Under the pieces are notes generated by a model that had not been told where the DNA came from, did not search any database, and saw only the letters and a list, made by a program, of their open reading frames with translations. Both the position numbers and the translations under genes were made by a program. A stretch of 64,000 nt of DNA from positions 8,226,501 to 8,290,500 of the forward strand of contig NZ_CP108514.1 in NCBI RefSeq assembly GCF_035989305.1, read 5' to 3'. Source of the DNA: Streptomyces sp. NBC_01233 (GTDB taxonomy: Bacteria; Actinomycetota; Actinomycetes; Streptomycetales; Streptomycetaceae). Below, piece after piece: positions 6,030 to 20,921 of this stretch; position 1 is the first letter of the stretch; each line of letters opens with the position of its first letter.

Positions 6030-7181
6030 TCAGGCGGCGGGCTTCCCGGGCTGGTCGTGGGTCGAGCAGTGGATGCCGCCGCCGCCCGAGGCGATCGTGT
6101 CGATCGCGACCGGCACGACGTCCCGCTCGGGGAAGTGCTCCTGCAGGATCCCGCGGGCCTTGTCGTCGGCCTTGCGGTCGCCGAACTTGGGCATGAAGAC
6201 GGCGTCGTTGGCGATGTAGAAGTTGGCGTAGGTCGACACGAAGTCGTCGCCCTCGCCCGTGATCCTGTTCAGGTCGGGCTGCGGCAGGTCGATGACGTCG
6301 AAGCGCCGCCCGCGTGCGTCCGTCGCCTTCGACAGGACGGACTTGGCCTGGTCGGCGGAGCGTGACCAGGAGTCCGCCGGGGTGCTGGGGTGCGCGCGGT
6401 CCAGCAGGACCACACCGGGCGCGGTGAAGCGCACCAGGCTGTCGACGTGGGCGTCGGTGATGTCCTCACCGCGCACGCCGGCCAGCCACACCACCGTCTC
6501 GACGCCCAGGGTCTGCTTGAGCTCGGCCTCGATCGTGTCGCGGTTCTTGCCCCGGTTGCGGTTGTCGTTGACGATCGAGCTCTCGGTGATCAGCAGGGTG
6601 CCCTCGCCGTCGGGCTCGAAGGAACCTCCCTCGGCGACGAGCGGCGCCTCGGCCCGGGGGATCCCGTACTTCTGGAGCAGGGCGCGAGCGACCATCCCGT
6701 CGTTCTCGTGCTCCTGCTTGTTGCCCCAGCCGTTGAAGTTGAAGTCGACGCCGACGACCTTTCCGCCTTCCTCGACGAAGACGGGAACGGTGTCGCGGGC
6801 CCACAGGTCGTCCACGGCGAGCGGGATCACCTCGACCTGTGATCCGCAGGCCCGCTGGGCCGCGTCCGCCTGATCGGGCCGGGCCATCATGACGACCGCC
6901 TCGTACTCCCCGACGGCCCGCGCGATCCGCGCGATGTCCTCGCGTACGTAGGGCAGGTCTCCCTCCCAGACCGACGACAGGTCCGGCCAGGACATGAAGG
7001 TGCGGGTGTGGCTCTCCCACTCGGCGCCGAGACGCCGCTTGCCGCCCGTCGTGGCGGGCTGGGAGGAGCCGACGGGGGCTCCGGTCGCCGAGGGACCACA
7101 GGCCGACGCGCCCGCGACGACGGCGCCGATTCCGGCGAGGGTGCGAAGGACGGTCCGACGGGTGGGGGGCAGGAAGGACAC
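6030..7181 (-). CDS. Agmatine deiminase family enzyme 1, Tat-type lipoprotein (383 aa)
   Basis: The product belongs to the porphyromonas-type peptidylarginine deiminase/agmatine deiminase fold, which turns agmatine into N-carbamoylputrescine plus ammonia. The GTG at 7181 (ribosome-binding site GGAG) opens a twin-arginine signal (RRTVLRTLAGIG) ending in a lipobox-like GASAC. Family motifs are all visible: WARDTVPVF, NFNGWGNKQ, EGGSFEPDGEGTLL, NRNRGKNRDTIEAEL, DAHVDSLVRF and the terminal active-site GGGGIHCSTH. The enzyme is therefore probably exported folded and lipid-anchored, which is unusual for a polyamine enzyme. The operator/promoter at 7340-7369 lies upstream and the gene is monocistronic. 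The true substrate could be agmatine or another guanidino compound. Confidence 0.85.
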   Translation of the reverse strand: MSFLPPTRRTVLRTLAGIGAVVAGASACGPSATGAPVGSSQPATTGGKRRLGAEWESHTRTFMSWPDLSSVWEGDLPYVREDIARIARAVGEYEAVVMMARPDQADAAQRACGSQVEVIPLAVDDLWARDTVPVFVEEGGKVVGVDFNFNGWGNKQEHENDGMVARALLQKYGIPRAEAPLVAEGGSFEPDGEGTLLITESSIVNDNRNRGKNRDTIEAELKQTLGVETVVWLAGVRGEDITDAHVDSLVRFTAPGVVLLDRAHPSTPADSWSRSADQAKSVLSKATDARGRRFDVIDLPQPDLNRITGEGDDFVSTYANFYIANDAVFMPKFGDRKADDKARGILQEHFPERDVVPVAIDTIASGGGGIHCSTHDQPGKPAA

Positions 7182-7339: not shown

Positions 7340-7369
7340 ACTGTCCCACTGACTGGAAATTCAGTCAAT
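7340..7369 (-). promoter_or_regulatory. Operator i and promoter for agmatine deiminase 1
   Basis: On the minus strand TTGACT (7368-7363), a 17-nt spacer and GACAGT (7345-7340) form a promoter. The imperfect palindrome 7348-7369 (GACTGAA-TT-TCCAGTC core) covers the -35 and spacer. The site overlaps the last codons and stop of the neighbouring TetR gene. It matches four other sites in the window, so TetR binding would block RNA polymerase. Confidence 0.75.
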
Positions 7370-7985
7370 TCACAGACGGTGTGGAACCCAGCCGGCCTGT
7401 TTCCACTCCGATCGCCTCGCGCAGCAGTCCGCGGGCGTGCCCGACGGGGAGCAGGCCGCTGAGCCAGCGGACGCTCAGCCCCTCCAGCAGGGCGGTCAGC
7501 CGCTCCGCGGCGGCCGTGACGGCGCCGGGCGGCGCGGCCGGGCACAGCTCGGCGAGGTGGCCCGCGACCTCCGCCGCCCAGGCCGCGCCCGCCGCGGCGA
7601 GTTCGTCCCGGAGCTCCGGATCGAAGACCGAGTGGGCCCGCAGCTCTCCCCAGGCCGTACTGTTCTCGCGCACCTCGGGCAGGTCCTGGAACGCCGGCAG
7701 CAGGGTCTGCTCCAGGAGTTGCCGCGGGCCGGACGGATGCGCCGCGGCCTGGCTGTTCTCCGTCGCGGCCCGGCCGTTCTCCGTCGCGGTGTAGCGGTCC
7801 GCCCGGTCCCCGATGAAGGCCAGGGCGTGCCGCAGGATGCCGGGCCGGTCCTTGAAGTGGTAGTAGATCAGGGCGGTGGACACGCCGGCCTCGGCCGCCA
7901 GGTCCGCCACCCGCAACCCCCGGACGCCCTGGCGCGCGATGACCCGCGCGGCGCCCGTGAGGATTGCTCGTCTGCGGTCGGTCAC
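7365..7985 (-). CDS. TetR-family regulator 1 (206 aa)
   Basis: The GTG at 7985 follows AGGAGGG at good spacing. The N-terminal helix-turn-helix is typical (residues about 5-50: AARVIARQGVRGLRVADLAA, then GVSTALIYYHFKDRPG). The ligand domain ends in a block (AAERLTALLEGLSVRWLSG) shared almost word for word with the second TetR at 8994, so the two are recent paralogues and should read the same DNA. The gene ends inside operator i and starts next to operator ii, implying autorepression and repression of the adjacent deiminase gene. The ligand is unknown; a polyamine or guanidino metabolite fits the context. Confidence 0.88.
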   Translation of the reverse strand: MTDRRRAILTGAARVIARQGVRGLRVADLAAEAGVSTALIYYHFKDRPGILRHALAFIGDRADRYTATENGRAATENSQAAAHPSGPRQLLEQTLLPAFQDLPEVRENSTAWGELRAHSVFDPELRDELAAAGAAWAAEVAGHLAELCPAAPPGAVTAAAERLTALLEGLSVRWLSGLLPVGHARGLLREAIGVETGRLGSTPSVN

Positions 7986-8027
7986 TGTGTGATCCCTCCT
8001 GGCCGTGTGCGTCTCGCATTGTCACAC

Positions 8028-8057
8028 ATTGACTGAAAGTTTAGTTAGCGGCACGAT
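8028..8057 (+). promoter_or_regulatory. Operator ii and promoter in the TetR1/8097 divergent gap
   Basis: TTGACT (8029-8034), a 17-nt spacer and CACGAT (8052-8057) form a plus-strand promoter. The degenerate palindrome ATTGACTGAA-AG-TTTAGTTAGC (8028-8049) is the weakest of the five related sites. It lies 43 bp upstream of the TetR1 start on the other strand and can control both directions. Confidence 0.7.
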
Positions 8058-8096
8058 GCGCGCAGGTCATTGCCGCAACGTCGAAAGAGCCACCGC

Positions 8097-8579
8097 ATGC
8101 CCGAGCAGCCAGGGGGCCCCGATGGGGGACCCACCGTCGGATCGACCCCGCCCGTCGACGCCGGGTCGGCACCTCCCGCCGCCGGGGGGACGACGCCGCC
8201 CACCGGCCCCGCCTATCTGCCCGGCTATGCGAAGTCCCAGCTCACCGCCCCCGACTCCGGCTACGAGTTCGATCTGAGGGCGGGCAGGGTGGTCCCGGCC
8301 GAGACGGTCACCTGGTACCTGGCCCGCGACGGTCATGCCTTCCTGCCGTCCGAGGAGTCGGACGCCTTCGTCGCCGAGGGCAGTGCACCGACCCCGGCAG
8401 ACTGCGTGCGGGGCATCGAGTCGCGTCCTGCCGCCACGCTGCCGTTCGGCGCGCTCGCGAACGCGCGGCCGTTCTGCGTGCGCAGTCCGGACCGGAACGA
8501 GATCGCCATCGTGCGGCTGGTCGCTGCGCCCGCCGACGGCTCGGTCACGATCGCGGTCGACCAGTACCGACGGAACTGA
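8097..8579 (+). CDS. Hypothetical protein of the TetR regulon (160 aa)
   Basis: The ATG at 8097 is preceded by a GAAAGAG ribosome-binding site; an in-frame TTG at 8070 is an alternative start. The first 45 residues are Pro/Gly/Thr-rich and probably disordered. A compact domain follows (LTAPDSGYEFDLRAG, AETVTWYLARDGHAFL, and a C-terminal strand pair ending TIAVDQYRRN). No family is recognised and there is no signal peptide. Its promoter carries operator ii, so it is co-regulated with the deiminase and urease genes; the role is unknown. Confidence 0.6.
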   Translation: MPEQPGGPDGGPTVGSTPPVDAGSAPPAAGGTTPPTGPAYLPGYAKSQLTAPDSGYEFDLRAGRVVPAETVTWYLARDGHAFLPSEESDAFVAEGSAPTPADCVRGIESRPAATLPFGALANARPFCVRSPDRNEIAIVRLVAAPADGSVTIAVDQYRRN

Positions 8580-8636
8580 GGCCCAGGGCGCGGGCCGGAT
8601 TCCGGGCGCAGGAGCCCACTCAGTGGCCGCACTGGC

Positions 8637-8665
8637 TTGACTGAATTTTCAGTTCACGTGAGGAT
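8637..8665 (+). promoter_or_regulatory. Operator iii and promoter upstream of TetR2
   Basis: TTGACT (8637-8642), a 17-nt spacer and GAGGAT (8660-8665) form the promoter. The palindrome core GACTGAATTTTCAGTT (8639-8654) overlaps the -35 and spacer. It should drive the transcript carrying the TetR2 gene. Confidence 0.72.
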
Positions 8666-8993
8666 GTCGAGTCATCCCGTCCGTTCACCCCTCAGGGAGG
8701 CCCGTGGACACCCGCTGCTCCGGTTCGGAGCGGCGGCCGTGCCGCTCGCCGCCCTCGGCCCGGCCCTCCCCTCCGCCGCGCACGCGGCCCCCGCCCCCGA
8801 AGGAGGTTCCGCAGGCCTGCGGATGCCCGAGGAGAGCGACCGCCCCGTCCGCCTGATGCCCGCCGCGCCCCGGCGGCCGCAGAAGCGGCAGGAGGAAGCC
8901 CCATCCGGCGGAGGGGCGGCGCCGGCGCCGGTCCGAACTCCCGGTGACGGGCCGTGTGCACCTGCCCCGGTAGGCCCCGGTAAGGTGCGGGTC
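8666..8993 (+). other. Open stretch between operator iii and TetR2; possible remnant of a secreted-protein gene
   Basis: The reading frame is open from 8664 straight into TetR2. It would encode a signal-peptide-like segment (LRFGAAAVPLAALGPALP then SAAHAAPAPEGG) followed by a Pro/Arg-rich tract. No TetR carries such an N terminus. I read it as a long leader or the 5' remnant of a deleted exported-protein gene fused in frame to the regulator, rather than as coding sequence of the regulator. Confidence 0.35.
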
Positions 8994-9575
8994 ATGGCGT
9001 CTCGCAGCACTCAGATCCTCGAAGCGGCCGCACGGGTGATCGCCCGGCGCGGGGTCCGCGGGCTGCGCGTGGAAGAACTCGCGGCCGAGGCCGGCGTCTC
9101 CACGGCCCTGATCTACTACCACTTCAAGGACCGCACGGGGGTCCTGCGCCAGACCCTCGAATTCATCAACGACCGCGCCGAGCGCTACACCACCGACCGC
9201 GACCCGGACGACCCTCCGCTCACCCCTCGGGAAGAGCTGGAGGAAACCTTGCTGCTGGAGCTCCAGGACACCGCGGAGGTACGGGAGAACAGCTCGGCGT
9301 GGGGCGAACTGCGGGCGAGCGCCGTCTTCGACGAGGTGCTCCGCGAGGACCTCGCCAGGGCCACCCTGGTGTGGGTCCAGGAGGTCGCCGCGCTATTGGG
9401 TCAGGTCCAGCCGATGGCGCCCGCCTCGTCGCTCGCAGCCGCCGCCGAGCGGCTCACCGCCCTCCTTGAGGGGCTCAGTATGCGCTGGCTCAGCGGTGGC
9501 ACCAAGATCGGCCACGCGCGGGAGCTCATGCGCGGCGCCATCGACGCCGAACTGGCCGGGCTCCGGCAGAACTGA
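8994..9575 (+). CDS. TetR-family regulator 2 (193 aa)
   Basis: The start at ATG 8994 was chosen because the helix-turn-helix begins almost at once (SRSTQILEAAARVIARRGVR, then GVSTALIYYHFKDR at about 35-48), matching the start of TetR1. The ligand domain shares long blocks with TetR1, such as EVRENSSAWGELRASAVF and ERLTALLEGLSMRWLSGG. It is encoded opposite TetR1, between operators iii and iv. It probably represses its own promoter and the urease operon, alone or as a heterodimer with TetR1. The inducer is unknown. Confidence 0.87.
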   Translation: MASRSTQILEAAARVIARRGVRGLRVEELAAEAGVSTALIYYHFKDRTGVLRQTLEFINDRAERYTTDRDPDDPPLTPREELEETLLLELQDTAEVRENSSAWGELRASAVFDEVLREDLARATLVWVQEVAALLGQVQPMAPASSLAAAAERLTALLEGLSMRWLSGGTKIGHARELMRGAIDAELAGLRQN

Positions 9576-9682
9576 CGTACCCGCCGACGCCCCCGCGAAG
9601 GGGGCTGCCGGGGACGGACGCCGGTGTTTCGGGTGCTGTCCCTTCCCTCTTCTCAGGGCCGGGACCTTTCGCTGCCCCATCT

Positions 9683-9712
9683 ATTGACTGAATTTTCAGT
9701 CAATGCCAGAGT
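9683..9712 (+). promoter_or_regulatory. Operator iv and promoter of the urease operon
   Basis: This is the best copy of the operator: ATTGACTGAA-TT-TTCAGTCAAT (9683-9704), a perfect palindrome with 10-bp arms. TTGACT (9684-9689), a 17-nt spacer and CAGAGT (9707-9712) give the promoter. A roughly 190-bp untranslated leader runs to the first ribosome-binding site at about 9896. Confidence 0.8.
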
Positions 9713-9910
9713 GGGCATCGAGCCGCCCGGCAACCGAAGGGCCCCGCTCCGGCCCGCCCCGCAGACCCCGAACCGCCCCAAGGGTCGCGTCTGGCCTCGT
9801 TCCTCGCTGCGCCACCGGCATCCCCTCCCGTGCACCCGTACACCCGGACGGGACGGCGGGTTCCGGCTCCGATGGTCCACCCCGCTCGCCTTCCGAAGGA
9901 GCCAACGATC
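9713..9910 (+). other. Untranslated leader of the urease operon
   Basis: No gene is supported here. The leader is GC-rich with several short inverted repeats but no recognised riboswitch; it ends with a strong ribosome-binding site (GAAGGAG) just before the 23-codon ORF. Confidence 0.35.
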
Positions 9911-9982
9911 ATGAAGGTATCGACAGGCCCGGGTACCCGCCCGGCTGCCTGGGCGGACGCCCGGTGGACGTCATGCACCTGA
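9911..9982 (+). CDS. 23-codon leader ORF overlapping the urease gamma/beta start
   Basis: An ATG with an excellent GAAGGAG ribosome-binding site opens MKVSTGPGTRPAAWADARW plus four residues and stops at TGA 9980-9982. The urease ATG at 9973 lies inside its last codons in another frame. The urease start itself has only a weak ribosome-binding site. This arrangement suggests translational coupling, with ribosomes loaded at the leader re-initiating on urease. No amino-acid run suggests classical attenuation. Confidence 0.5.
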   Translation: MKVSTGPGTRPAAWADARWTSCT

Positions 9983-10677
9983 CGCCCACCGAACGTGACC
10001 GACTCCTCCTGTTCAGCGCCGCCGAACTGGCCCGGGCGCGCCACGCGCGGGGCCTGCGGCTCAACGTTCCCGAGGCGACCGCGGTGATCGCCGACACGGT
10101 GTGCGAGGCGGCCCGCGACGGCCTCCGCCTGGCCGATGCCCTCGCACGCGGCCGTGGCGTCCTCGGCCCGGACGACGTCCTGCCGGGCGTCGTGGACATC
10201 GTGACCGAGGTGATGGTCGAGGCGGTGTTCGAGGACGGCACCCGGCTCGCGGCGGTCAGCGAACCCTTCGGGGGGTGCCCGCGCGACGACGGGGCGCCGG
10301 GCGCCGTACTGCCCGCCACGGACACCGCCCCGGCCGCCGCGCCGGCGCTGATCCTCGCGGTGCGCAACACCGCGACGGTCCCGGTGAGCGTGACCTCGCA
10401 CTTCCACTTCTTCGAGGCCAATCCGCGCCTAGACTTCGACCGCGCAGCCGCGTACGGCATGCGCCTGGCCGTCCCCGCAGGATCGTCCACCCGCTTCGAC
10501 GCGGGCTCCACCGTCGAGGTGGGCCTCGTCCCCATCGGCGGCGCTCGCATCGCGATCGGCTTCGCCGGCCTGGTGGACGGCCCGCTCGACGCTCCCGGCG
10601 CGCAGGAAGAAGCCCTCCACAAGGCCGTGGCCTGCGGCTACCTGGGCGCGGCCGCCCCAGAAGGAGCCCCGTCATGA
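9973..10677 (+). CDS. ureAB: Urease gamma/beta fusion subunit (234 aa)
   Basis: The N-terminal about 100 residues are urease gamma (MHLTPTERDRLLLFSAAELA, then RLNVPEATAVIADTVCEAAR and the DVLPGVVDIVTEVMVEAVF block). The C-terminal part is urease beta (LAVRNTATVPVSVTSHFHFF, ANPRLDFDRAAAYGMRLAVP and ALHKAVACGYLG). The fused form occurs in one actinobacterial urease type. It forms the holoenzyme with the alpha subunit encoded immediately downstream (4-bp overlap). The upstream ORF and operator iv control its expression. No ureD/E/F/G accessory genes are in the window, so nickel loading must rely on genes elsewhere. Confidence 0.9.
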   Translation: MHLTPTERDRLLLFSAAELARARHARGLRLNVPEATAVIADTVCEAARDGLRLADALARGRGVLGPDDVLPGVVDIVTEVMVEAVFEDGTRLAAVSEPFGGCPRDDGAPGAVLPATDTAPAAAPALILAVRNTATVPVSVTSHFHFFEANPRLDFDRAAAYGMRLAVPAGSSTRFDAGSTVEVGLVPIGGARIAIGFAGLVDGPLDAPGAQEEALHKAVACGYLGAAAPEGAPS

Positions 10678-12422
10678 GCAGACCGACCCGGCACGGCGAC
10701 CACTGTGCGCCGGGCAGCCGGCACATCGACCCGCACGAGTACGCCTCCGTCTTCGGCCCCCGGGCCGGGGACCGGGTCCGGCTCGGCGACTCCGGGCTGA
10801 CCGTCCGGGTGGAGTCCGATGCGCAGAAGCCCGGTGACGAGTTCCTGGCCGGTTTCGGGAAGACGGCCCGTGACGGTCTGCACCTGAAGGCGGCCGCGGT
10901 CCGCGAGACCTGTGACGTGGTGATCAGCAATGTCCTGGTGATCGATGCCGTTCTGGGCATCCGCAAGGTGTCGATCGGTATTCGTGAGGGCCGGATCCAC
11001 GCGATCGGCCGGGCCGGCAACCCCGACACCCTCGACGGCGTGGACGTCGTCGTCGGCACCGGCACGTCGATCGTCTCCGGCGAGGGCCTGATCGCGACCG
11101 CCGGCGCCGTGGACACGCATGTCCACCTGCTTTCCCCGCGGATCATGGAGGCGTCCCTCGCCGCGGGCGTGACCACGGTCATCGGCCAGGAGTTCGGCCC
11201 GGTCTGGGGTGTCGGTGTCAACTCGCCCTGGGCGCTGAAGCACGCCTTCAACGCCTTCGACGCCTGGCCCGTCAACATCGGTTTCCTGGCCCGGGGTTCT
11301 TCCTCGGACGCGGCTCCGCTGGTGGAGGCGCTGGCCGAGGGCGGGGCGTCCGGTTTCAAGGTCCACGAGGACATGGGTGCGCACACCCGTGCCCTGGACA
11401 CCGCCCTGCGGGTGGCCGAGGAGCACGACGTGCAGGTCGCCCTGCACTCGGACGGCCTCAACGAGTGCCTCTCCGTCGAGGACACCCTGCGCGTGCTGGA
11501 CGGCCGGACCATCCACGCCTTCCACATCGAGGGCTGCGGCGGCGGGCACGTTCCCAACGTGCTGAAGATGGCGGGCGTGGCGAACGTCATCGGCTCCTCC
11601 ACGAACCCGACGCTGCCCTTCGGCCGGGACGCGGTGGCCGAGCACTACGGCATGATCGTCTCCGTCCACGACCTCAAGCCGGACCTGCCGGGTGACGCGG
11701 CCATGGCCCGTGACCGGATCCGCGCCGGCACGATGGGCGCGGAGGACGTGCTCCACGACCTCGGGGCGATCGGCATCACCTCCTCCGACGCGCAGGGCAT
11801 GGGCCGGGCGGGGGAGACCATCCGCCGCACCTTCGCCATGGCCGCCAAGATGAAGGGCGAGCTCGGCCCGCTCGCCGGTGACGGCGAGGGCGACGACAAC
11901 GCCCGCGTGCTGCGCTATATGGCCAAGCTGACCATCAACCCGGCCATCGCCCACGGTCTGGCCCACGAGATCGGCTCCATCGAGGTCGGCAAGCTCGCCG
12001 ACATCGTGCTGTGGCGCCCCCCGTTCTTCGGCGCCAAGCCCCAGCTCGTCCTCAAGTCGGGCTTCCCCGCGTACGGAGTCACCGGCGACCCCAACGCCGC
12101 CACCGACTGCTGTGAGCCGCTCGTCCTGGGCCCGCTGTTCGGGGCCCACGGCGCCGCACCCGCGGACCTCTCCGTGGCGTTCGTCAGCCGTGCCGCGGCC
12201 GAGTCGGGCTCCTTCGGAGCCCCCTACGACACCCTGGGCACCCGGCGCCGCCGGGTCGCCGTGCGGGGGACCCGGGGCATCGGCCCGGAGGACATGGTCG
12301 GCAACACCCGTCTGGGGGAGGTCGACGTCGACCCCCGCACCGGGCTCGTCACGCTCGACGGGGAACCCCTGCGCTCCGAGCCGGCGCAGCAGGTCTCGCT
12401 CAACCGCCTCTACTTCCTCTGA
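10674..12422 (+). CDS. ureC: Divergent urease alpha subunit (582 aa)
   Basis: This is a full-length urease alpha subunit, the nickel amidohydrolase chain that splits urea. The metal site is complete: THVH, the carbamylated lysine in GFKVHEDMG, the histidine of VALHSDGLNE, HIEGCGGGH, and Asp and Met in TSSDAQGMGR. The mobile flap differs. Where canonical enzymes read MVCHHLDPD, the ungapped alignment here gives VSVHDLKPD: the flap cysteine is valine and the second histidine aspartate, while the catalytic histidine is kept. Activity on urea may be altered or directed at a substituted urea. Context with agmatine deiminases makes N-carbamoylputrescine a candidate, which is inference only. Confidence 0.9.
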   Translation: MSRPTRHGDHCAPGSRHIDPHEYASVFGPRAGDRVRLGDSGLTVRVESDAQKPGDEFLAGFGKTARDGLHLKAAAVRETCDVVISNVLVIDAVLGIRKVSIGIREGRIHAIGRAGNPDTLDGVDVVVGTGTSIVSGEGLIATAGAVDTHVHLLSPRIMEASLAAGVTTVIGQEFGPVWGVGVNSPWALKHAFNAFDAWPVNIGFLARGSSSDAAPLVEALAEGGASGFKVHEDMGAHTRALDTALRVAEEHDVQVALHSDGLNECLSVEDTLRVLDGRTIHAFHIEGCGGGHVPNVLKMAGVANVIGSSTNPTLPFGRDAVAEHYGMIVSVHDLKPDLPGDAAMARDRIRAGTMGAEDVLHDLGAIGITSSDAQGMGRAGETIRRTFAMAAKMKGELGPLAGDGEGDDNARVLRYMAKLTINPAIAHGLAHEIGSIEVGKLADIVLWRPPFFGAKPQLVLKSGFPAYGVTGDPNAATDCCEPLVLGPLFGAHGAAPADLSVAFVSRAAAESGSFGAPYDTLGTRRRRVAVRGTRGIGPEDMVGNTRLGEVDVDPRTGLVTLDGEPLRSEPAQQVSLNRLYFL

Positions 12423-12459
12423 GGGCGCCTCCTGCCCGTTCCCTCTCGCACGGATCGAC

Positions 12460-12490
12460 TCTTGACTGAATTTTCAGTCGGTGAAAGGCT
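12460..12490 (+). promoter_or_regulatory. Operator v and promoter of the deiminase 2/ABC importer operon
   Basis: TTGACT (12462-12467), a 17-nt spacer and AAGGCT (12485-12490) form the promoter. The perfect core palindrome GACTGAA-TT-TTCAGTC spans 12464-12479. The predicted transcription start falls only a few bases before the ATG at 12503, so the mRNA may be almost leaderless or use the ATG at 12515. Confidence 0.77.
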
Positions 12491-12502: not shown

Positions 12503-13549
12503 ATGAGACAGCTGATGTCCGAATACCGCATGCCTGCCGAGTGGACAGAGCACGAGGGCTGCCTGATGGCCTGGCCCACCCGCGAGGACCTGTGGGGAAG
12601 CGTGCTGGCCGACGTCAAGGAGGAGTACGCCAACGTCGCCCGCGCCATCGCGGCCTTCGAGCACGTGACGGTGGTCGCTCCGCCCGGCCACGGCGAGGAC
12701 GCCCGCGCCCGCTGCGGCCAGGACACCGCCGGCATCACCGTCATCGAGATGCCGCTCGACGACTCCTGGTTCCGCGACTGCGCCCCGCTCTTCGTCCTCG
12801 ACGCCGACGGCAACCGCGCCGGCGTGGACTTCCGCTTCAACGCCTGGGGCGGCAAGCACCACCCGTTCGACGCCGACGACCGGGTCAGTGCCCTGCTGCT
12901 GGAGCACCTCGGGGTCGACCGCATCACCTCCGACATGATCCTCGAAGGCGGTGCGATCACCGTCGACGGCGAAGGCACCCTGATCACCACCGAGCAGTGC
13001 CTGCTGCACCCCAACCGGAACCCCGACAAGAGCCGTGACGAGATCGAGGCCGAGCTGAAGTCCCGGCTCGGCGTCACCAAGGTGATCTGGCTGCCGTACG
13101 GCGGCCTGCTCGACACCGAGACCGACGGCCACGTCGACGGCGTCTGCGCCTTCGCCGCGCCCGGCACGGTCGTCGTCTCCCTGCCCGACAACCCCAACCA
13201 CCCCGACTACGCCCGGATGCGCGCCAACCGTGCGGTGCTCGAAGCCGCCACCGACGCCCAGGGCCGCCGACTGGAGATCATCGACGTGCCGCAGACGGCC
13301 TTCGCCGATCTCGCCGACGGCGAGATCGAGGTGTCCTACCTGAACTACTACGTGGCCAACGGCGGCGTCGTCGTCCCGGTGGCCGGGCTGGCCCAGGACG
13401 AGGACGCCCTCGCCGTCATCGCCTCCGCCCACCCCGGCCGCAAGGTCGTCGGCGTACGGGCGCTCGCCATCGCGTTCGGCGGCGGCGGAGTCCACTGCAT
13501 CACCCAGCAGATCCCCGCCGCACGCACCGGCGTGCACGCCGCCGGCTGA
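12503..13549 (+). CDS. aguA: Agmatine deiminase 2, cytosolic (348 aa)
   Basis: This is a complete agmatine deiminase without a signal peptide. Motifs in order are PAEWTEHEGCLMAWPTRED, DDSWFRDCAPLFV, FNAWGGKHHPF, ILEGGAITVDGEGTL, HPNRNPDKSRDEIEAEL, TDGHVDGVCAF and the catalytic GGGGVHCITQQIP. It converts agmatine to N-carbamoylputrescine and ammonia in the cytoplasm. It is the first gene of an operon with a five-gene ABC importer and is controlled by operator v. An N-carbamoylputrescine amidohydrolase gene, the usual partner, is absent from the window. The start could be ATG 12503 or 12515. Confidence 0.9.
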   Translation: MRQLMSEYRMPAEWTEHEGCLMAWPTREDLWGSVLADVKEEYANVARAIAAFEHVTVVAPPGHGEDARARCGQDTAGITVIEMPLDDSWFRDCAPLFVLDADGNRAGVDFRFNAWGGKHHPFDADDRVSALLLEHLGVDRITSDMILEGGAITVDGEGTLITTEQCLLHPNRNPDKSRDEIEAELKSRLGVTKVIWLPYGGLLDTETDGHVDGVCAFAAPGTVVVSLPDNPNHPDYARMRANRAVLEAATDAQGRRLEIIDVPQTAFADLADGEIEVSYLNYYVANGGVVVPVAGLAQDEDALAVIASAHPGRKVVGVRALAIAFGGGGVHCITQQIPAARTGVHAAG

Positions 13550-13644: not shown

Positions 13645-15321
13645 ATGACCACCTCCCCACCCCGCACGGCAAGACGCCCCCACCGCCCCCACCGCCCCCA
13701 CCTCCGCCGCAGCGCGGTCCTCACCAGCGCCGTCCTGACCTCCCTCGCCCTGCTCGCGGCCTGCTCCGGTCCGCCCAAGGGCGACGCGGGCGAGGTCACC
13801 GACGTCCACCTCTCCGCCTCCACGCCCCCGGCCCGCGGCGAGATCGACTCCTTCAGCTGGGCCGTCTACGCCGAACCGCCGACCCTCGACTACACGGTGG
13901 CGTTCGACTACCCGCAGAACACCATCCTGTCCAACGTGTGCGAGAGCCTGATGCGCTGGACCCCGGCGCTCACCACCGAGCCCGGGCTCGCCCAGAAGGC
14001 GTCCAACCCCGATCCCACCACCTGGGTCTACGACCTGCGCCCCGGCGTGCGCTTCCACGACGGCAAGGAGATGACCGCCGACGACGTGGTCTTCAGCCTC
14101 GGCCGGCAGATGGACCCCGACAACGCCGCCGCCTGGGCCCAGGTCTTCCAGAACGTCTCCGCCGTCACCAAGAGCGGCCCGCTCCAGGTCACCGTCAAGC
14201 TCAAGAAGCCCGACTCCCAGTTCCCGCAGTACATGGCGACCGCTGCCGGAGCGGTGGCTTCCCAGGCCGGCGTCGAGGCGGCGGGCAAGGACTACGGCAC
14301 GACCGGCGGGCTCGCCTGCACCGGCCCCTTCGAACTCGGCACGTGGAACAAGGGCCAGTCGGTCGAACTCAACCGCTTCGACGGCTACTGGGGCGCCAAG
14401 GCCAAGTCGAAGAAGGCCGTCTTCCGCGTACTGACCGACCCGTCCGCCCGCACCAACGCGATGCTCAGCGGGGAGGTCGACGGCGGCTACCTGATCCCCA
14501 CCGAGAGCTACGCCCGCCTGCGCGGCAGCGGCAGCGGCACCCTCTACTTCGGCGAGGGCCTGAGCACGGTCAACGTCAACGTCACCAACATGGAGGGGCC
14601 CCTCGGTGACGTCCGCGTCCGAAGGGCCCTGTCCCTGGCGCTCGACCGCACCGGATTCGTCAAGGCCGGACTCGGGGGCGCGGGCACCGTCACCAACTCC
14701 CTGACCACCCGCGCCGCCTGGGCCGCCGCACCCGAGAACACCCTGAAGACCGCCCTCGACGGGCTGCCGCCCACCGGCCAGGACATCGACAAGGCCAAGG
14801 CGCTGGTCCAGGAGGCCGGGGCCACCGGCAAGACCCTGACCATGGCCACCAGTTCCATAGGCCAGGACGTCTCCCTCCTCGCCACCGCGGTCCAGGCGGC
14901 CGGTACGCAGATCGGCCTGGACATCCGGCTGAAGACCATCGCCCCCAACGCCTTCACCGCACTCTTCACCGACCCCCGGGCGCGCGAGGGCATCGACATG
15001 TTCCCGCTCACCTACTACGACTCGATCACCGACCCGCTCGACCTCCTGGCGAACTTCAAGACCGGCGCGTACATGAACTTCGCCGGCTACAGCGACCCCC
15101 AGTACGACCAGCTCGTCGACCAGGCCACCGCCGTCTACCCGGTCCAGCAGCGGATGGAGATCGAGGCGAAACTCCAGCACCACGCCTGCGAGCAACTGCT
15201 GTGGATCCCCGTCGCCGAGTGGCCGACCGCGCTGTTCCAGGGCAAGCGCATCACGGGAGCGCCCACCACCATCTCGTACATGTACCACCCGTGGGCCGCC
15301 GACGTGGGGGCCGCGCAGTGA
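13645..15321 (+). CDS. Family-5 ABC substrate-binding lipoprotein (558 aa)
   Basis: The N terminus has a basic His/Arg/Pro-rich stretch, a hydrophobic core and a lipobox (LALLAAC). The mature part carries family-5 hallmarks: PPTLDYTVAFDYPQNTILSN, DLRPGVRFHDGKEMTADDVV, GPFELGTWNKGQSVELNRF and a C-terminal EIEAKLQHHACEQLLWIPV. This family binds peptides, opines, nickel chelates and similar ligands. The gene is the second of the deiminase 2 operon, so guanidino or peptide nutrients fit. A nickel ligand serving urease is an equally testable alternative. The downstream permease start overlaps its stop codon. Confidence 0.88.
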   Translation: MTTSPPRTARRPHRPHRPHLRRSAVLTSAVLTSLALLAACSGPPKGDAGEVTDVHLSASTPPARGEIDSFSWAVYAEPPTLDYTVAFDYPQNTILSNVCESLMRWTPALTTEPGLAQKASNPDPTTWVYDLRPGVRFHDGKEMTADDVVFSLGRQMDPDNAAAWAQVFQNVSAVTKSGPLQVTVKLKKPDSQFPQYMATAAGAVASQAGVEAAGKDYGTTGGLACTGPFELGTWNKGQSVELNRFDGYWGAKAKSKKAVFRVLTDPSARTNAMLSGEVDGGYLIPTESYARLRGSGSGTLYFGEGLSTVNVNVTNMEGPLGDVRVRRALSLALDRTGFVKAGLGGAGTVTNSLTTRAAWAAAPENTLKTALDGLPPTGQDIDKAKALVQEAGATGKTLTMATSSIGQDVSLLATAVQAAGTQIGLDIRLKTIAPNAFTALFTDPRAREGIDMFPLTYYDSITDPLDLLANFKTGAYMNFAGYSDPQYDQLVDQATAVYPVQQRMEIEAKLQHHACEQLLWIPVAEWPTALFQGKRITGAPTTISYMYHPWAADVGAAQ

Positions 15322-16277
15322 GCTTCGCCCGATTCGCCGTACGACGGGTGGCGGAAATGGCCGCCACCCTCCTCGCCGCCTCGTTCGTGGTCTTCGGCGC
15401 CATGTACACGGCGCCGGGCAACCCGGCGAGCTTCCTGCTCGCCGGCCGGTCGGCCTCCCCGGAGGCCCTCGCCTCGATCAACGCCCAGTACCACCTGGAC
15501 GATCCTTTCCTCACCCGCTACTTCCACTGGCTCGGGGACGTGCTCCAAGGCGACTTCGGGCGCTCGATCACCTACCGCACCGATGTCTCGCGCCTCCTGG
15601 CGGACCGGCTTCCCGTGACGCTGCTGCTGATCACCATGGCTCTCGTCGTGGTCGTGGCGGTCGGCCTGCTGCTGGGCCGGACCGCCGCCGTCCGGGGCGG
15701 GGCCACCGATTCCGCGATCCTGGTCACCACGACGTTCGCCGTCGGCACTCCGTCCTTCGTCGCGGCCGTCCTGCTCCAGGGGCTGTTCGCCGTCCAGCTG
15801 GGGTGGTTCCCCAGCAGCGGCGCCGGCGAGGGCTTCGCGGACATGCTCTGGCACCTCGCGCTCCCCGCGGTCGCCCTCGCGCTCTACCTGATCGGCATGC
15901 TCGCCCGCGTCACCCGCTCCGCCATGCTCGAAGCCCTCGACAGCGAGCACGTCACCGTCGCCCGCAGCCGGGGCGTCCCCGAACGCCAGGTCATCCGCCG
16001 CCACGTCTTCCGCAACTCCCTCGGGACCGTCCTGACCACCGGCGGACTGATCGTCTCCACCCTCCTGGTGTGCACCATCCTGGTCGAGACCGCCTTCAGC
16101 ATCGGCGGCATCGGCCAGCTCCTCGAACTGTCCACCACCACCAAGGACTTCCCGACCGTCCAGGCGATCTCCCTGATCATCGTCGCCCTCTTCATGATCG
16201 TGAACCTGCTCGTGGACCTGCTGCTGCCCCTGGTCGACCCCCGGGTCACCCTCGGAACGAGGGGAGCCGCCACGTGA
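15318..16277 (+). CDS. ABC permease, DppB/NikB type (319 aa)
   Basis: The GTG at 15318 overlaps the TGA of the binding-protein gene. The product has an N-terminal membrane helix, then the TM segments of the DppB/OppB fold. The EAA-type loop is clear (LDSEHVTVARSRGVPERQVI, then HVFRNSL), and the end matches the family (LVDLLLPLVDPRVTLG). It forms the membrane channel with the next gene product. A 4-bp overlap with both neighbours indicates strict co-translation. Confidence 0.9.
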   Translation: MSFARFAVRRVAEMAATLLAASFVVFGAMYTAPGNPASFLLAGRSASPEALASINAQYHLDDPFLTRYFHWLGDVLQGDFGRSITYRTDVSRLLADRLPVTLLLITMALVVVVAVGLLLGRTAAVRGGATDSAILVTTTFAVGTPSFVAAVLLQGLFAVQLGWFPSSGAGEGFADMLWHLALPAVALALYLIGMLARVTRSAMLEALDSEHVTVARSRGVPERQVIRRHVFRNSLGTVLTTGGLIVSTLLVCTILVETAFSIGGIGQLLELSTTTKDFPTVQAISLIIVALFMIVNLLVDLLLPLVDPRVTLGTRGAAT

Positions 16278-17128
16278 GCGCCGTACTCGTCCGCCGCCCC
16301 GGCCTCTCCCGGATCCGTGCCACCGGTTCCCCGCTCCACCTCCTCTGCCTGGGCCTCGTCGCCCTCGTCGTCCTCGCCGCACTGCTCGCGCCCTGGGCGG
16401 CGCCCCAAGACCCCAACGCCGTGGACCTCGGCAACGCCCTCGCCGAGCCCTCCGCCGCACACCCGCTCGGCGTGGACGCCGCCGGCCGCGACACCCTCTC
16501 CCGGCTGCTGTTGGGCGCGCGCACCTCGCTCCTCGGACCGCTGGGCGTCGTCGCCTTCTCCACCGTGGCGGGCATCGCCATCGGCATGGCCGCCGCCTGG
16601 CGGGGCGGCTGGATCGACTCCGTCCTGTCCCGCAGCACGGAGCTGGTCTTCGCCTTCCCCGGCATGCTGCTGGCCATCCTGATCATCTCCGTCTACGGAG
16701 AGGGCCTGCTCGCCCCCGTCATCGCGCTGGCCGTCGCCTACCTGCCCTACGTCAGCCGCCTCACCCGCTCCCTCGTGCTCGCCGAGCGCAGCCGCCCGTA
16801 CGTGAGCGCCTATCAGGTCCAGGGCCACTCGGCCGTACAGATCTGCCTGCGCCACGTCCTGCCGAACATCGCCCCCGTCGTCCTCGCCCAGTCCACCATC
16901 AACTTCGGCTACGCCCTGATGGACCTCGCCGGACTGTCGTTCCTCGGGCTCGGAGTTCCGGCCCTCACCCCCGACTGGGGCCGCATGGTCTTCGACGGGC
17001 AGACCGCCATCCAGCACGGCTACCCGCTCTCCGCGATCCTGCCCTGCGCCTTCATCGTGCTGACCGTGGTCGCCTTCAACGTGGTGGGCGAGCGGTGGGC
17101 CGACCGTGTAGCCGGGAGAACCCCATGA
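16274..17128 (+). CDS. ABC permease, DppC/NikC type (284 aa)
   Basis: A GTG at 16274 overlaps the upstream stop. Family features are an N-terminal helix, the segment HPLGVDAAGRDTLSRLLLGA that follows it in DppC proteins, several TM helices and the EAA loop YQVQGHSAVQICLRHVLPN. The sequence LAGLSFLGLGVPALTPDWG is the conserved C-terminal signature. It pairs with the preceding permease. Its stop overlaps the ATG of the first ATPase gene. Confidence 0.9.
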   Translation: MSAVLVRRPGLSRIRATGSPLHLLCLGLVALVVLAALLAPWAAPQDPNAVDLGNALAEPSAAHPLGVDAAGRDTLSRLLLGARTSLLGPLGVVAFSTVAGIAIGMAAAWRGGWIDSVLSRSTELVFAFPGMLLAILIISVYGEGLLAPVIALAVAYLPYVSRLTRSLVLAERSRPYVSAYQVQGHSAVQICLRHVLPNIAPVVLAQSTINFGYALMDLAGLSFLGLGVPALTPDWGRMVFDGQTAIQHGYPLSAILPCAFIVLTVVAFNVVGERWADRVAGRTP

Positions 17129-18165
17129 AACAGGCGCGACTGACACGAGCGACGCGACCGACACGAGCGATGCGACCGGCGCGATCGGCCGACACGCTCG
17201 ACATCCAAGGGCTGAGAGTCACCCTGCCCGGCACCGCCCGGCCCGTCCTCGACGGCGTCGACCTCACCGTCGCCGCCGGCGAGACCGTCGCCCTCGTCGG
17301 CGAGTCCGGATCCGGCAAGACCATCACCTCCCGCAGCGCACTGCGTCTGCTGCCGCCCGGCGCCGTCGTCGAAGGCACGGTCCGGGTCGACGGCCAGGAC
17401 GTGCTCGCCATGGACACCGACCGCCTGCGCGCGGTACGGGCCGGCACGGTCGCCATGGTCTTCCAGGACCCGCGCGCCGCGGTCAACCCGCTGCGGCGCA
17501 TCGGCGACTTCCTCACCGAGAGCGTCACCCTCACCGGGGCCATGAGCCGGACGGAGGCCACCGCCCGGGCGGTCGAACTCCTCCGGGCGGTCGGCCTGGA
17601 CGAGTCCCTCCTGCGCACGTACCCCGGCCAGGTCTCCGGCGGCATGCTCCAGCGCGTCGTGATCGCGGCGGCCCTGATGGGGGACCCCGTGCTCCTGCTG
17701 GCCGACGAGCCCACCACGGCCCTGGACGTCAGCAGCCAGGCCGAGGTCATCGCCCTCCTGACCACGCTCCGCGAACGCTTCGGCACCGGGCTGCTGTTCG
17801 TCACCCACGACCTCGACCTCGCCGCCGCCATCAGCGACCGCGTCTACGTCATGTACGCCGGCCGGATCGCGGAGTCCGGCCGGGCCGAGGTCCTCTTCTC
17901 CCGCCCCCGGCACCCGTACACGGCAGCCCTCCTCGCCTCCACCCCGCGGATGGAGGGCCCCCGGGGCAGGCTCGCCGCCATCGAGGGCCGGCCGCCGGAC
18001 CTGCGGGAACCGCTGCACGGCTGCGCCTTCGCAGCCCGCTGTCCGCTCGCCACGGAGGTCTGCGACCAGCAGGCCCCGCTGCTGTCCGCAGCCCCGGACC
18101 GGCCGGACCACCGGGCCGCGTGTCACCACGGCGACCTGCTCGAAGGGAGCGCCGTCGATGCCTGA
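17125..18165 (+). CDS. ABC ATPase, DppD/NikD type (346 aa)
   Basis: An ATG at 17125 overlaps the previous stop (ATGA). The first 30 residues are a basic Arg/Thr/Ala repeat with no known role. The nucleotide-binding domain has Walker A GESGSGKT, the signature VSGGMLQRV, Walker B LLLADEPTTALD and the H-loop FVTHDLDL. The C-terminal oligopeptide-transporter extension is present (HPYTAALLAS..., with a cysteine-rich CAFAARCPLATEVCDQQ). It energises the importer. Confidence 0.9.
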   Translation: MKQARLTRATRPTRAMRPARSADTLDIQGLRVTLPGTARPVLDGVDLTVAAGETVALVGESGSGKTITSRSALRLLPPGAVVEGTVRVDGQDVLAMDTDRLRAVRAGTVAMVFQDPRAAVNPLRRIGDFLTESVTLTGAMSRTEATARAVELLRAVGLDESLLRTYPGQVSGGMLQRVVIAAALMGDPVLLLADEPTTALDVSSQAEVIALLTTLRERFGTGLLFVTHDLDLAAAISDRVYVMYAGRIAESGRAEVLFSRPRHPYTAALLASTPRMEGPRGRLAAIEGRPPDLREPLHGCAFAARCPLATEVCDQQAPLLSAAPDRPDHRAACHHGDLLEGSAVDA

Positions 18166-18955
18166 GAACGTACTGGAGGTCCAAGGGCTGAGCCGCTCCT
18201 TCGGAGCCGTCAGGGCGGTGGACGACGTGTCCTTCGCACTCCCCGAAGGCGGATCGCTGGGCATCGTCGGCGAGTCCGGATCCGGCAAGACGACCGCCGC
18301 CCGCATCGTCGTCGGCCTGGAGCGCGCGGACGAAGGAGAGGTCCTGGTCCGCGGCCGGTCCCGGACCGCGCACGCCCGGGGCCGGGCCGCGGGCCTCGCC
18401 CGTGCCCGCGAGATCCAGATGGTCTTCCAGGACCCGTACCTCTCCCTCGACCCGCGCACCAGCGTCGAAGCGGCCCTGCGGGAGACCCTGAGCCTGCACT
18501 TCCCCGGCCGCGACCACGCGAAGCGCGTACGCGAACTGCTCGACCAGGTGGGCCTGGGCACCCGGGCCGCGGACGCCCTGCCGCGCCGTCTGTCCGGCGG
18601 TCAGCGCCAGCGCGTCGCCATCGCCAGGGCCCTCGCCGTCGAACCGGCCGTCCTCGTCCTGGACGAGGCCGTCGCCGCGCTCGACGTCTCCGTGCAGGCG
18701 CAGATCCTCAACCTGCTGGCCGATGTCAGGGAGCAGACCGGGATCGCGTTCCTCTTCATCACCCACGACCTCGGGGTCGTGCGGTGCGTGACCGACGAGA
18801 TCGTCGTGATGCGGCACGGGGCCGTGGTCGAACAGGGCGGCACGCAGGAGGTGCTCGCCGCGCCCGGGCATCCGTACACCCGGCTGCTGCTGGAGTCCGT
18901 GCCCCGCCCCGGCTGGGATCCGGCGGCGATCGCCGCGGCCCGGCGGGCGCTGTAG
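18158..18955 (+). CDS. ABC ATPase, DppF/NikE type (265 aa)
   Basis: This overlaps the preceding ATPase gene by 8 bp and is the last gene of the operon. Walker A GESGSGKTTA, signature LSGGQRQRV, Walker B VLVLDEAVAALDVS and the H-loop FITHDLGVV are all intact. The C terminus ends HPYTRLLLESVPRPG and is shorter than in the first ATPase, lacking the cysteine cluster. It is the second ATPase of the heterodimer. Twenty-odd bases separate it from the convergent TetR gene. Confidence 0.9.
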   Translation: MPENVLEVQGLSRSFGAVRAVDDVSFALPEGGSLGIVGESGSGKTTAARIVVGLERADEGEVLVRGRSRTAHARGRAAGLARAREIQMVFQDPYLSLDPRTSVEAALRETLSLHFPGRDHAKRVRELLDQVGLGTRAADALPRRLSGGQRQRVAIARALAVEPAVLVLDEAVAALDVSVQAQILNLLADVREQTGIAFLFITHDLGVVRCVTDEIVVMRHGAVVEQGGTQEVLAAPGHPYTRLLLESVPRPGWDPAAIAAARRAL

Positions 18956-18977: not shown

Positions 18978-19613
18978 TCAGGCACCGGCGGCGAGCGTAC
19001 GGATCAGGGTGCGCAGCACCGGCCCTGAGTCGACCTCGGAGCCCAGTGACTCCGCCGCGGCCAGGCCGTCCACGGCGGCGGCCACCGCTTCGCCCAGCAG
19101 GACCGGGTCGACGTCACCGTCCCGTTCCTCGGCCAGGACCTGGAACAGGGTGACGAAACAGCCGCGCCAGCGCCGGAACTCCGCCTCCAGGCACTCCCGG
19201 ACCCGCGTGTCGTTGAGGGCGTGCCAGTGCAACGCCGAGTGGAGGTGGGAGAGTTCCGCGCCCTCGGGCCGGCCCAGCAGTTCGACCATCCGCTCGGCGC
19301 GCTCCGCGAACGACCCCGGAGCGGCGGCCGCCTGCTCCAGGGGGAGGATCCACTCGGGGCGGATGTCCGCGATGACCGCCAGGACGAGGTCGGTCCGGTC
19401 CTGGAAGTGGTAGTGGCACATCCCGTGTGAAACGCCGGACAAAGCCGCCACGTTGCGGGTGGTGAACCGTTCGCTCATCCCGCCCGCCAGCAGGGTCCGT
19501 GCGGCGGCGATCAGTCGTGCCCGGGTCTGCTCGCCCTTCGCCGAGACCCTGGGGCGCCCCGCGCGGGCAGGAGGGACGGGCGGGTTCGGGGAGTCCTTCG
19601 CGGAAGCGGCCAT
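18978..19613 (-). CDS. TetR-family regulator 3 (211 aa)
   Basis: The helix-turn-helix lies at about residues 28-70 (GEQTRARLIAAARTLLAGG, then SGVSHGMCHYHFQDRTDLV). The ligand domain differs from TetR1 and TetR2, so it probably senses a different signal. The gene is divergent from agmatine deiminase 3 and the gap contains an 18-bp palindrome on the deiminase promoter. It should repress that gene and perhaps itself. A basic N-terminal extension precedes the domain. Confidence 0.87.
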   Translation of the reverse strand: MAASAKDSPNPPVPPARAGRPRVSAKGEQTRARLIAAARTLLAGGMSERFTTRNVAALSGVSHGMCHYHFQDRTDLVLAVIADIRPEWILPLEQAAAAPGSFAERAERMVELLGRPEGAELSHLHSALHWHALNDTRVRECLEAEFRRWRGCFVTLFQVLAEERDGDVDPVLLGEAVAAAVDGLAAAESLGSEVDSGPVLRTLIRTLAAGA

Positions 19614-19687: not shown

Positions 19688-19716
19688 ATTGACCGAGCGC
19701 TTGGCCAGTTTTAGCT
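19688..19716 (+). promoter_or_regulatory. TetR3 operator and promoter of agmatine deiminase 3
   Basis: TTGACC (19688-19693), a 17-nt spacer and TAGCTT (19711-19716) form the promoter. The palindrome TGACCGAGCGCTTGGCCA (19689-19706, two mismatched pairs) covers the -35 and spacer. Geometry equals the five TTGACTGAA sites, but the sequence is distinct. Confidence 0.65.
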
Positions 19717-19769: not shown

Positions 19770-20921
19770 ATGAACGAGCATGCGACGAACCCGCCCGGCG
19801 CGGGCCTGGACAGGCGCAGATTCCTGGCGGCGGCGGGACTCACGGCCGCGGCCGCCGCGCTCGCGGTGACCGAGGGGCGGGCGGGGGCGGCGGTCCGCCC
19901 CGCCGCCGCGGCGGGCCCGTTCCGGGTGCCGATCGAGGACGTCCACCACACCCGCACCTGGATGGCCTGGCCGGACAGCACCTCCATCTGGGGCAACACG
20001 CTCAGCGGCGTCCAGTCGGACATCGCGCTCATCGCCCGCACCATCGCCAAGTACGAGCCGGTCTACATCTGTGCCAACTCGGGCAGCGCCGCCAAGGCCC
20101 GTTCCATGTGCGGTTCCACCGTCACCGTCGTCACCACCATCCCCGTGGACGACTGCTGGATGCGCGACACCGGACCCGTCTTCCGCACGGACGGGGCCGG
20201 CGGGCTGGACGCGGTCGGCCTGAACTTCAACGGCTGGGGCGGGAAGCAGGCCCACTCCAAGGACGCCCTGGTCGCCGCCCGCGTCGCCGCCCACCTCGGC
20301 GTCCCCTTCACCGGCGCCGGGCTGGTGGGCGAGGGCGGCGCGGTCGAGCAGGACGGCGCGGGCACGCTGATGGCCACCCGCAGCAGCCTGGTGAACCGCA
20401 ACCGCAACCCCACCATGTCGCAGAGCCAGATCGAGGCCGCGCTGCGCACCGCCTACGGCGCGTCCAAGGTGATCTGGTTCGACGGCGTGGTCGGCCAGGA
20501 CATCACCGACGACCACGTCGACGCGACCTCCCGCTTCCTCGCCCCCGGGAAGGCCCTGGTCCAGATGCCACTGGCCTCGGACAACGACGTCTACGCCAAG
20601 GACGCGCGCCGGCAGTACCAGATCCTGTCCGCGGCCACGACCGCGGGCGGAGCCCGGATGACGGTCGAGAAGCTCCAGGGCCCCGACTACTACAAGATCC
20701 GCTCCACCAACCCGGACTTCCTCGCCTCCTATGCCAACTACTACGTGTGCAACGGCGCCGTGATCAGCGGTCAGTTCGGCGACACCCGGGCCGATGCCGC
20801 GGCGCGCGCCACGCTGACCCGCCTCTTCCCCGGCCGTGTCGTCGAACGCCTCAACATCGACCGCCTCGGTGCCGGTGGCGGCGGCGTCCACTGCGTCACC
20901 CAGCAGCAGCCGGTGCCGTAG
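19770..20921 (+). CDS. Agmatine deiminase family enzyme 3, Tat-exported (383 aa)
   Basis: An ATG with AAGGAG upstream opens a Tat signal (DRRRFLAAAGLTAAAAALAV) without a lipobox cysteine, so the protein is likely secreted or surface-retained. The deiminase domain is complete: TRTWMAWPDSTSIWG, DDCWMRDTGPVF, NFNGWGGKQAHS, VGEGGAVEQDGAG, NRNRNPTMSQSQIEAAL, DDHVDATSRF and the catalytic GGGGVHCVTQQQP. It has the same length as enzyme 1 but a different sequence and its own TetR. Extracellular agmatine or arginine derivatives are plausible substrates. Confidence 0.88.
   Translation: MNEHATNPPGAGLDRRRFLAAAGLTAAAAALAVTEGRAGAAVRPAAAAGPFRVPIEDVHHTRTWMAWPDSTSIWGNTLSGVQSDIALIARTIAKYEPVYICANSGSAAKARSMCGSTVTVVTTIPVDDCWMRDTGPVFRTDGAGGLDAVGLNFNGWGGKQAHSKDALVAARVAAHLGVPFTGAGLVGEGGAVEQDGAGTLMATRSSLVNRNRNPTMSQSQIEAALRTAYGASKVIWFDGVVGQDITDDHVDATSRFLAPGKALVQMPLASDNDVYAKDARRQYQILSAATTAGGARMTVEKLQGPDYYKIRSTNPDFLASYANYYVCNGAVISGQFGDTRADAAARATLTRLFPGRVVERLNIDRLGAGGGGVHCVTQQQPVP

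Follow-up and report, generated by a model that had tools for sequence, protein, structure and literature searches.

The window analysed here, a stretch of 64,000 nt from Streptomyces sp. NBC_01233, contains TetR-type regulator genes, deiminase genes, a divergent urease gene pair and an importer, interspersed with candidate operators (Table 1). Domain and profile matches bore out the gene families named in the first-pass annotation, which had listed two TetR regulators, deiminases, urease subunits and a five-gene importer; the deiminases are of the PAD_porph family. A Tat-type signal was recognised by eye in the sequence of AguTat1, and export of this deiminase is predicted.

Table 1 Genes, gene remnants and candidate operator elements of the locus, in window positions.
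Feature	Position	Strand	Remarks
AguTat1, PAD_porph deiminase	6030..7181	-	383 aa from alternative start; longest ORF extends to 7349
Operator 1 -10 hexamer	7345-7340	-	GACAGT; from flank geometry
Operator 1	7349..7368	-	2 mismatches; covers -35 and spacer of exported-deiminase promoter
TetR1	7365..7985	-	BetI-type C domain; domain search
Operator 2	8029..8048		3 mismatches; between TetR1 (-) and kinase remnant (+)
Operator 2 -10 hexamer, toward kinase remnant	8052-8057	+	CACGAT; spacing 17
Ser/Thr protein kinase gene remnant	8070..8579	+	C-terminal part left, kinase domain deleted
Operator 3	8637..8656	+	2 mismatches; -10 GAGGAT 8660-8665
5' remnant of deleted third deiminase gene	8700..8852 (approximate limits)	+	Comparison with relatives
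TetR2	8994..9575	+	Domain search
Operator 4	9684..9703	+	0 mismatches (perfect); ureAB-ureC promoter, -10 CAGAGT 9707-9712
UreAB, fused urease gamma/beta	9973..10677	+	Domain search
UreC, divergent urease alpha	10674..12422	+	Metal ligands present, substrate loops changed
Operator 5	12462..12481	+	2 mismatches; AguA/importer promoter, -10 AAGGCT 12485-12490
AguA, cytosolic agmatine-deiminase-like enzyme	12503..13549	+	Alternative ATG at 12515
Importer solute-binding protein, SBP_bac_5	13645..15321	+	Domain search
Importer permease 1	15315..16277	+	Importer gene 2 of 5
Importer permease 2	16274..17128	+	Importer gene 3 of 5
Importer ATPase 1	17125..18165	+	Importer gene 4 of 5
Importer ATPase 2	18158..18955	+	Importer gene 5 of 5

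The palindrome TTGACTGAA-NN-TTCAGTCAA occurs five times in the window, each site lying zero to three mismatches from it, and no site appeared when the window was dinucleotide-shuffled 100 times. The first-pass annotation gave the positions of all five correctly; its description of them as near-identical suits four but not operator 2, the weakest match. At every one of the five, TTGACT is followed after 17 nt by NANNNT, and each such promoter points into a gene or gene remnant; because TTGACT lies within the palindrome itself, only the -10 hexamer counts as independent promoter evidence. The identical geometry claimed earlier thus holds at all sites, except from operator 2 toward TetR1 on the minus strand, where NANNNT stands at a spacing of 19 and the 17-nt promoter faces the opposite way. 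The importer genes have no site of their own and are located downstream of the cytosolic deiminase gene. An Rfam scan of the window at the gathering threshold returned a cobalamin riboswitch (854-1080) as its sole match, so no known leader RNA explains the long 5' regions.

The sites had also been said each to read into the regulators, enzymes and importer named above, which stands once two targets are reassigned by comparison with relatives. There, a third deiminase gene, its product probably exported, lies between site 3 and TetR2; it is gone in this genome, and the comparison indicates that site 3 ancestrally served this deiminase and not primarily TetR2. In relatives the plus side of site 2 looks onto a Ser/Thr kinase gene, of which only the C-terminal part survives here. 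The deiminase at 19770 was excluded from the regulon: it adjoins another TetR gene, whose palindrome is not the one described here, and we assign it to that regulator.

Genome-wide (10.3 Mb, ≤3 mismatches), the palindrome has seven sites, the five in the window and two at an unlinked locus, and a reversed control pattern gave none in the same search. The unlinked locus holds a third TetR paralogue (TetR3, ~560 kb from TetR1 and TetR2), an operator-linked deiminase gene that is internally deleted and an AguB-like gene; the genome's three TetRs of this subfamily all sit in its two site-bearing loci. Weaker core matches at 3101204 and 6325020 were set aside, as none of the ORFs around them resembled a regulon gene on inspection by eye.

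A scan of related genomes, proposed in the first-pass annotation, found the site recurring with the TetR subfamily and the regulon genes. Among 121 genomes of the genus, 20 carried site and TetR, three the site only, five the TetR only and 93 neither (Fisher p 2.3e-15, ignoring relatedness, with related genomes not being independent); TetRs were scored from at most 41 and at most 80 first-look candidates per genome, so some could be missed. In four of the five TetR-only genomes a three-mismatch site adjoins the TetR; one TetR-only locus (L069) has no site even at ≤6 mismatches. The sites in the three genomes lacking the TetR (G022, G023 and G100) differ at their centre and in the genes around them, and were assigned to another regulator.

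Loci drawn by the TetR protein alone gave the same picture: 76 of 80 carry the site (≤3 mismatches), these being the best 80 of 277 confirmed loci, some from one genome and two overlapping. Named species that carry the cluster include Streptomyces virginiae and S. avidinii. In the same loci the reversed pattern was found in five and five shuffled palindromes in none. After removal of repeats, a regulon gene match follows within 700 bases downstream of 165 of the 171 sites in this protein-drawn set. NANNNT stands at spacing 17 in 137 of the 172 orientations facing non-TetR regulon genes, and no other spacing between 12 and 23 exceeds 10 of the 172. A motif-drawn set, with which 24 of the 171 sites are shared, comprised 66 loci: the window, L008, 39 site regions outside G000, the five TetR-only loci and 20 regions hand-picked from a longer list. 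It contains 108 sites near a regulon gene, of which one (L016) should be discounted, its importer match being weak only. Within 700 bases, no match to a regulon gene accompanies six of the protein-drawn sites and five of the motif-drawn ones; the frames downstream of the six protein-drawn sites had nothing in common on inspection. Downstream of two of these six lies a frame that resembles an M55-type peptidase (named by eye). In a genus of another family (g8), the order TetR-site-AguA-AguB-importer was present in all four genomes read, of five that bear the site.

TetR1 and TetR2 are 59% identical, and both exceed the cut-offs of TetR_N and TetR_C_6, corresponding to a helix-turn-helix and a ligand-type C domain. 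The recognition-helix stretch is mostly invariant across the 14 TetRs compared. The best solved relative of TetR2, over residues 1-187, is PDB 2g3b, itself annotated only as a putative TetR-family regulator.

From these patterns we consider it highly likely that TetR repressors occlude the promoters of a regulon for guanidino and ureido nitrogen. In the proposed mechanism, the paralogous BetI-type TetR1, TetR2 and TetR3 would bind the single palindrome. Because its left end coincides with the -35 hexamer of the promoters under control, a bound repressor would block RNA polymerase. A guanidino or ureido ligand (agmatine, N-carbamoylputrescine or a relative) would then release the repressors, jointly switching on the exported deiminases, the cytosolic deiminase with the Opp-type importer, the AguB-like amidohydrolase and the urease-like UreAB-UreC, whose shared task would be uptake of guanidino compounds followed by removal of ammonia from them. 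Very probably one operator-regulator pair controls these genes together. That another regulator uses the palindromes, with the TetR genes as mere neighbours, is very improbable given the co-occurrence of site and subfamily across genomes, the site's frequency in TetR-drawn loci and the confinement of this genome's three paralogues to site-bearing loci. We also think it improbable that TetR1 and TetR2 are activators, or that one represses while the other modulates; the paralogue pair is indeed retained side by side in several loci, which would fit such roles, but operators lying over the -35 hexamer and spacer suit occlusion, not activation. The initial proposal of shared TetR control through promoter-overlapping operators, with a guanidino/ureido theme, is therefore strongly supported by conservation, with corrections at site 3, site 2 and 19770, and the operator-linked AguB-like gene outside the window adds to that support.

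The window deiminases pass the Pfam PF04371 (PAD_porph) cut-off, and all three fall below that of the agmatine-deiminase equivalog TIGR03380 (381.8), with scores of 342.8 for AguA, 251.8 for AguTat1 and 235.3 for AguTat2. The active-site segments of AguA and AguTat1 align with those of solved deiminases. These sub-threshold scores, the peptide/nickel type of the importer and the presence of at least four operator-linked deiminase genes in one relative (G004), which suggests several substrates, would fit a genuine regulon that is not for agmatine: the exported deiminases would act on other guanidino compounds, for instance arginine-terminated peptides or natural products bearing a guanidino group, with the products taken up by the Opp-type importer. 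We lean against this reading while giving it appreciable weight, since the best solved relative of AguA is an agmatine deiminase, that of the AguB-like protein, which has a CN_hydrolase domain, is a characterised N-carbamoylputrescine amidohydrolase, and in g8 AguA lies next to AguB.

AguB and UreC were surveyed in 45 of the 121 genomes, comprising every TetR-bearing genome (25) and, from the remaining 96, 20 picked in order of handle with G008, G010, G022 and G023 passed over. The AguB search gave ten matches in TetR-bearing genomes, three of them merely 64-65% identical, one of these three with an internal stop. Eight TetR-bearing genomes have two divergent UreC copies, and four of the eight lack an AguB relative at E 1e-60. 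The deiminase-importer operon of g8 includes AguB; Streptomyces clusters have UreAB-UreC adjoining instead.

The metal-ligand residues are conserved in the window UreC and 10 divergent homologues, and in all 11 sequences a substrate loop lacks four residues and Val or Ala takes the place of the flap cysteine, on the roles assigned to these residues. UreC scores 646.8 against the urease alpha equivalog TIGR01792, under its cut-off of 680, and 748.5 against the NCBIfam subfamily model PRK13207 ('urease subunit alpha'), over its cut-off of 354; UreAB scores 303.8 against PRK13192 (cut-off 243). UreAB-UreC could be an ordinary urease clearing urea made by agmatinase or arginase, as its intact metal ligands, its two subfamily matches and the ureases found as its nearest solved structures would suggest. 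To this we give somewhat less than an even chance: the altered loop and flap and the missed equivalog cut-off speak against it, as does the canonical urease that this genome also encodes. The AguA-AguB route, moreover, is described as giving putrescine with CO2 and ammonia and no urea (PMC9397018). More speculatively, and with rather low probability, UreAB-UreC may be a metal-dependent hydrolase acting on a substituted urea, for example deiminase-made N-carbamoylputrescine, and not on urea, which would make it the urease-fold counterpart of AguB; the four genomes with two divergent UreC copies and no AguB relative, and the place of AguB in the g8 operon, would fit this reading.

The proposed regulon offers a testable operator for conserved Streptomyces genes whose substrates have been guessed, among them those for the exported deiminases, the importer and a urease-like enzyme that is widely retained. 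The operator also predicts membership, having led to an AguB-like gene, an NCS1 permease and a kinase as further members. Should the urease homologue indeed act on ureido products, labelling every UreC a urease would fail. Among the matches listed in the open-licence literature, no title described a Streptomyces regulon of this kind.

In S. coelicolor, a urease pair and a homologue with neighbouring locus numbers, SCO5525-5526 (ureABC) and SCO5527, appear in a list for the arginine-decarboxylase pathway, and that paper reports that neither arginine nor ArgR affects them (PMC3293853). Their counterpart here is likely the core copy in L064, which differs from the window cluster in having no site with <6 mismatches within 19.5 kb. 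AguR of E. faecalis likewise controls an agmatine deiminase pathway, but is described as an activator (PMC3796520). The closest parallel is P. aeruginosa AguR, a TetR repressor that binds the aguBA promoter between -35 and -10 and is released by agmatine (PMC4287709). Here, too, TetR genes accompany candidate, motif-based operators inside the promoters of aguA/aguB-type genes, a likeness of gene context and operator position. Whereas P. aeruginosa has a single aguBA operon, the system proposed here would be larger, with several operators, TetR paralogues, exported deiminases, an importer and a urease homologue.

Five copies of the palindrome TTGACTGAA-NN-TTCAGTCAA lie in the window, as the first-pass annotation had claimed; they carry 0–3 mismatches, and none arose in 100 shuffles. 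The accompanying TTGACT, 17-nt spacer and NANNNT were recovered at all five sites, in one direction each. A whole-genome motif scan of the 10.3-Mb genome of Streptomyces sp. NBC_01233 (G000) at ≤3 mismatches found seven sites, and the reversed control pattern gave no match. The two sites outside the window (G000:C1:7676199–7676292) lie between the gene of a third TetR paralogue and an internally deleted deiminase gene, downstream of which is an N-carbamoylputrescine amidohydrolase-like (AguB-like) gene.

Candidate operators, operator-linked kinases and decay regions
Feature	Location	Position	Mismatches to TTGACTGAA-NN-TTCAGTCAA
Operator 1	window	7349-7368	2
Operator 2	window	8029-8048	3
Operator 3	window	8637-8656	2
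Operator 4	window	9684-9703	0
Operator 5	window	12462-12481	2
Ser/Thr protein kinase	L038	6313-8007	
Ser/Thr protein kinase	L032	7096-8838	
Decay region	window	8029-9000	
Decay region	L008 (unlinked locus)	8041-8571	

The site and the regulator mostly travel together. Among 121 genus genomes, a motif scan placed a site at ≤2 mismatches in 23, and a protein search (E 1e-30), scoring at most 41 and 80 first-look candidates per genome, placed a TetR2-like gene in at least 25. Among the candidates scored, 20 genomes had both, 3 the site alone, 5 TetR alone and 93 neither (Fisher p 2.3e-15, relatedness ignored). A 3-mismatch site adjoins TetR in four of the five TetR-only genomes; at the fifth locus (L069) no site at ≤3 mismatches lies beside TetR. 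A second draw, by TetR alignment alone against named genomes, confirmed 277 loci, of which the best 80 were kept; 76 of these 80 bear a site at ≤3 mismatches. The same 80 loci gave 5 sites in 5 loci for the reversed pattern and no matches for five shuffled palindromes. The four loci without a site (one Streptomyces, one Kitasatospora, both Streptacidiphilus) have best matches at 4 or 5 mismatches. Order-wide, 55 of 391 genomes carry sites, spread over 3 of 10 genera, with five of these genomes in another family (f3, genus g8).

Scanning relatives for the motif beside these families, as had been suggested, supported the proposal of shared control: a regulon gene match lies ≤700 bases downstream of 108 of 113 sites in 66 motif-drawn loci (one of the 108, in L016, doubtful) and of 165 of 171 distinct protein-drawn sites, 24 of which are shared with the motif-drawn set. 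Targets are putatively exported deiminases, the cytosolic deiminase AguA, UreAB, TetR genes and a Ser/Thr kinase, the last being frequent in relatives (32 of 226 protein-drawn site orientations). In four loci (L020, L030, L034, L049) the target is an NCS1 permease with a deiminase downstream, and in three (L015, L042, L047) it is an AguB-like gene. In all four g8 genomes read (5 site-bearing), one site separates TetR from AguA-AguB-SBP-permease-permease, SBP being the importer solute-binding protein.

Within the window, TetR1 and TetR2 share 59% identity and C domains of BetI type, and in the urease pair one protein fuses gamma and beta while the other is the alpha subunit. The two deiminases at 6030–7181 (with a Tat-type signal judged by eye) and 12503–13549 (AguA) belong to the PAD_porph family, and each has its best solved relative among the agmatine deiminases; the window's deiminases score under the agmatine-deiminase equivalog cut-off, and substrate names for regulon enzymes are putative, following family resemblance. 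The importer genes downstream of AguA have no separate operator. A cobalamin riboswitch occupies 854–1080 on the minus strand. Operator 3 is not primarily a TetR2 site: in L038 a third deiminase sits between the two. L038 also has an intact kinase gene; in the window the kinase domain is gone and no more than a short remnant of the third deiminase survives. These losses, together with the internal deletion in the unlinked-locus deiminase, mark this genome's regulon as decaying.

The genome has one canonical urease, two divergent ones and one further marginal match. In the divergent alpha subunits (window copy plus 10 distinct others) the metal-ligand residues are conserved, but a substrate loop is four residues shorter and the flap cysteine is replaced by Val or Ala; full loop and cysteine are both present in the canonical enzyme. 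We take these residue roles from the urease literature. At E 1e-200, divergent-type UreC occurs in 31 of the 45 genomes tested, among them 13 of the 20 that lack TetR; the gene is therefore widely conserved, and in some species one of its copies has been recruited to the regulon. Two copies occur in 8 of 25 TetR-bearing genomes, four of these eight lacking an AguB relative at E 1e-60; such relatives occur in 10 of 25 TetR-bearing genomes versus 1 of 20 others. A core locus elsewhere in the genome (L064, 7328–13068) holds an NCS1 permease, divergent ureAB-ureC, an AguA relative and another TetR; the regulon operator is absent from it. Its ureC and the window copy, 1.67 Mb apart, differ by one base in the first 1400 aligned (L064 9619–11018, window 10674–12073), beyond which identity falls to 67–81%, which points either to gene conversion of recent date or to an artefact of assembly. 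The G039 and G042 contigs likewise break in or at ureC.

The deiminase at 19770 belongs with another regulator: it adjoins a different TetR (18978–19613) and a different palindrome of TTGACCGAGC-GCTCGGTCAA type with TTGACC-17-TANNTT, found in 9 of 11 distinct upstream regions (of the exceptions, L046 is cut off and L017 lacks it). This promoter-operator of the same design (19689–19708, TTGACC-17-TAGCTT), between TetR4 and the third window deiminase, is conserved in relatives.

Toward non-TetR regulon genes, NANNNT stands at spacing 17 in 137 of 172 protein-drawn orientations (≤10 at each of the remaining spacings between 12 and 23) and in 74 of 110 motif-drawn ones (≤15 at other spacings); the operator therefore provides the −35 and occupies the spacer. 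Toward TetR genes the peak is at spacing 19 (19 of 54 protein-drawn, 12 of 48 motif-drawn). An operator so placed fits occlusion, in which the candidate repressor would block the promoter and a ligand would free it. AguR of P. aeruginosa is reported to bind between the −35 and −10 of aguBA and to be released by agmatine (PMC4287709).
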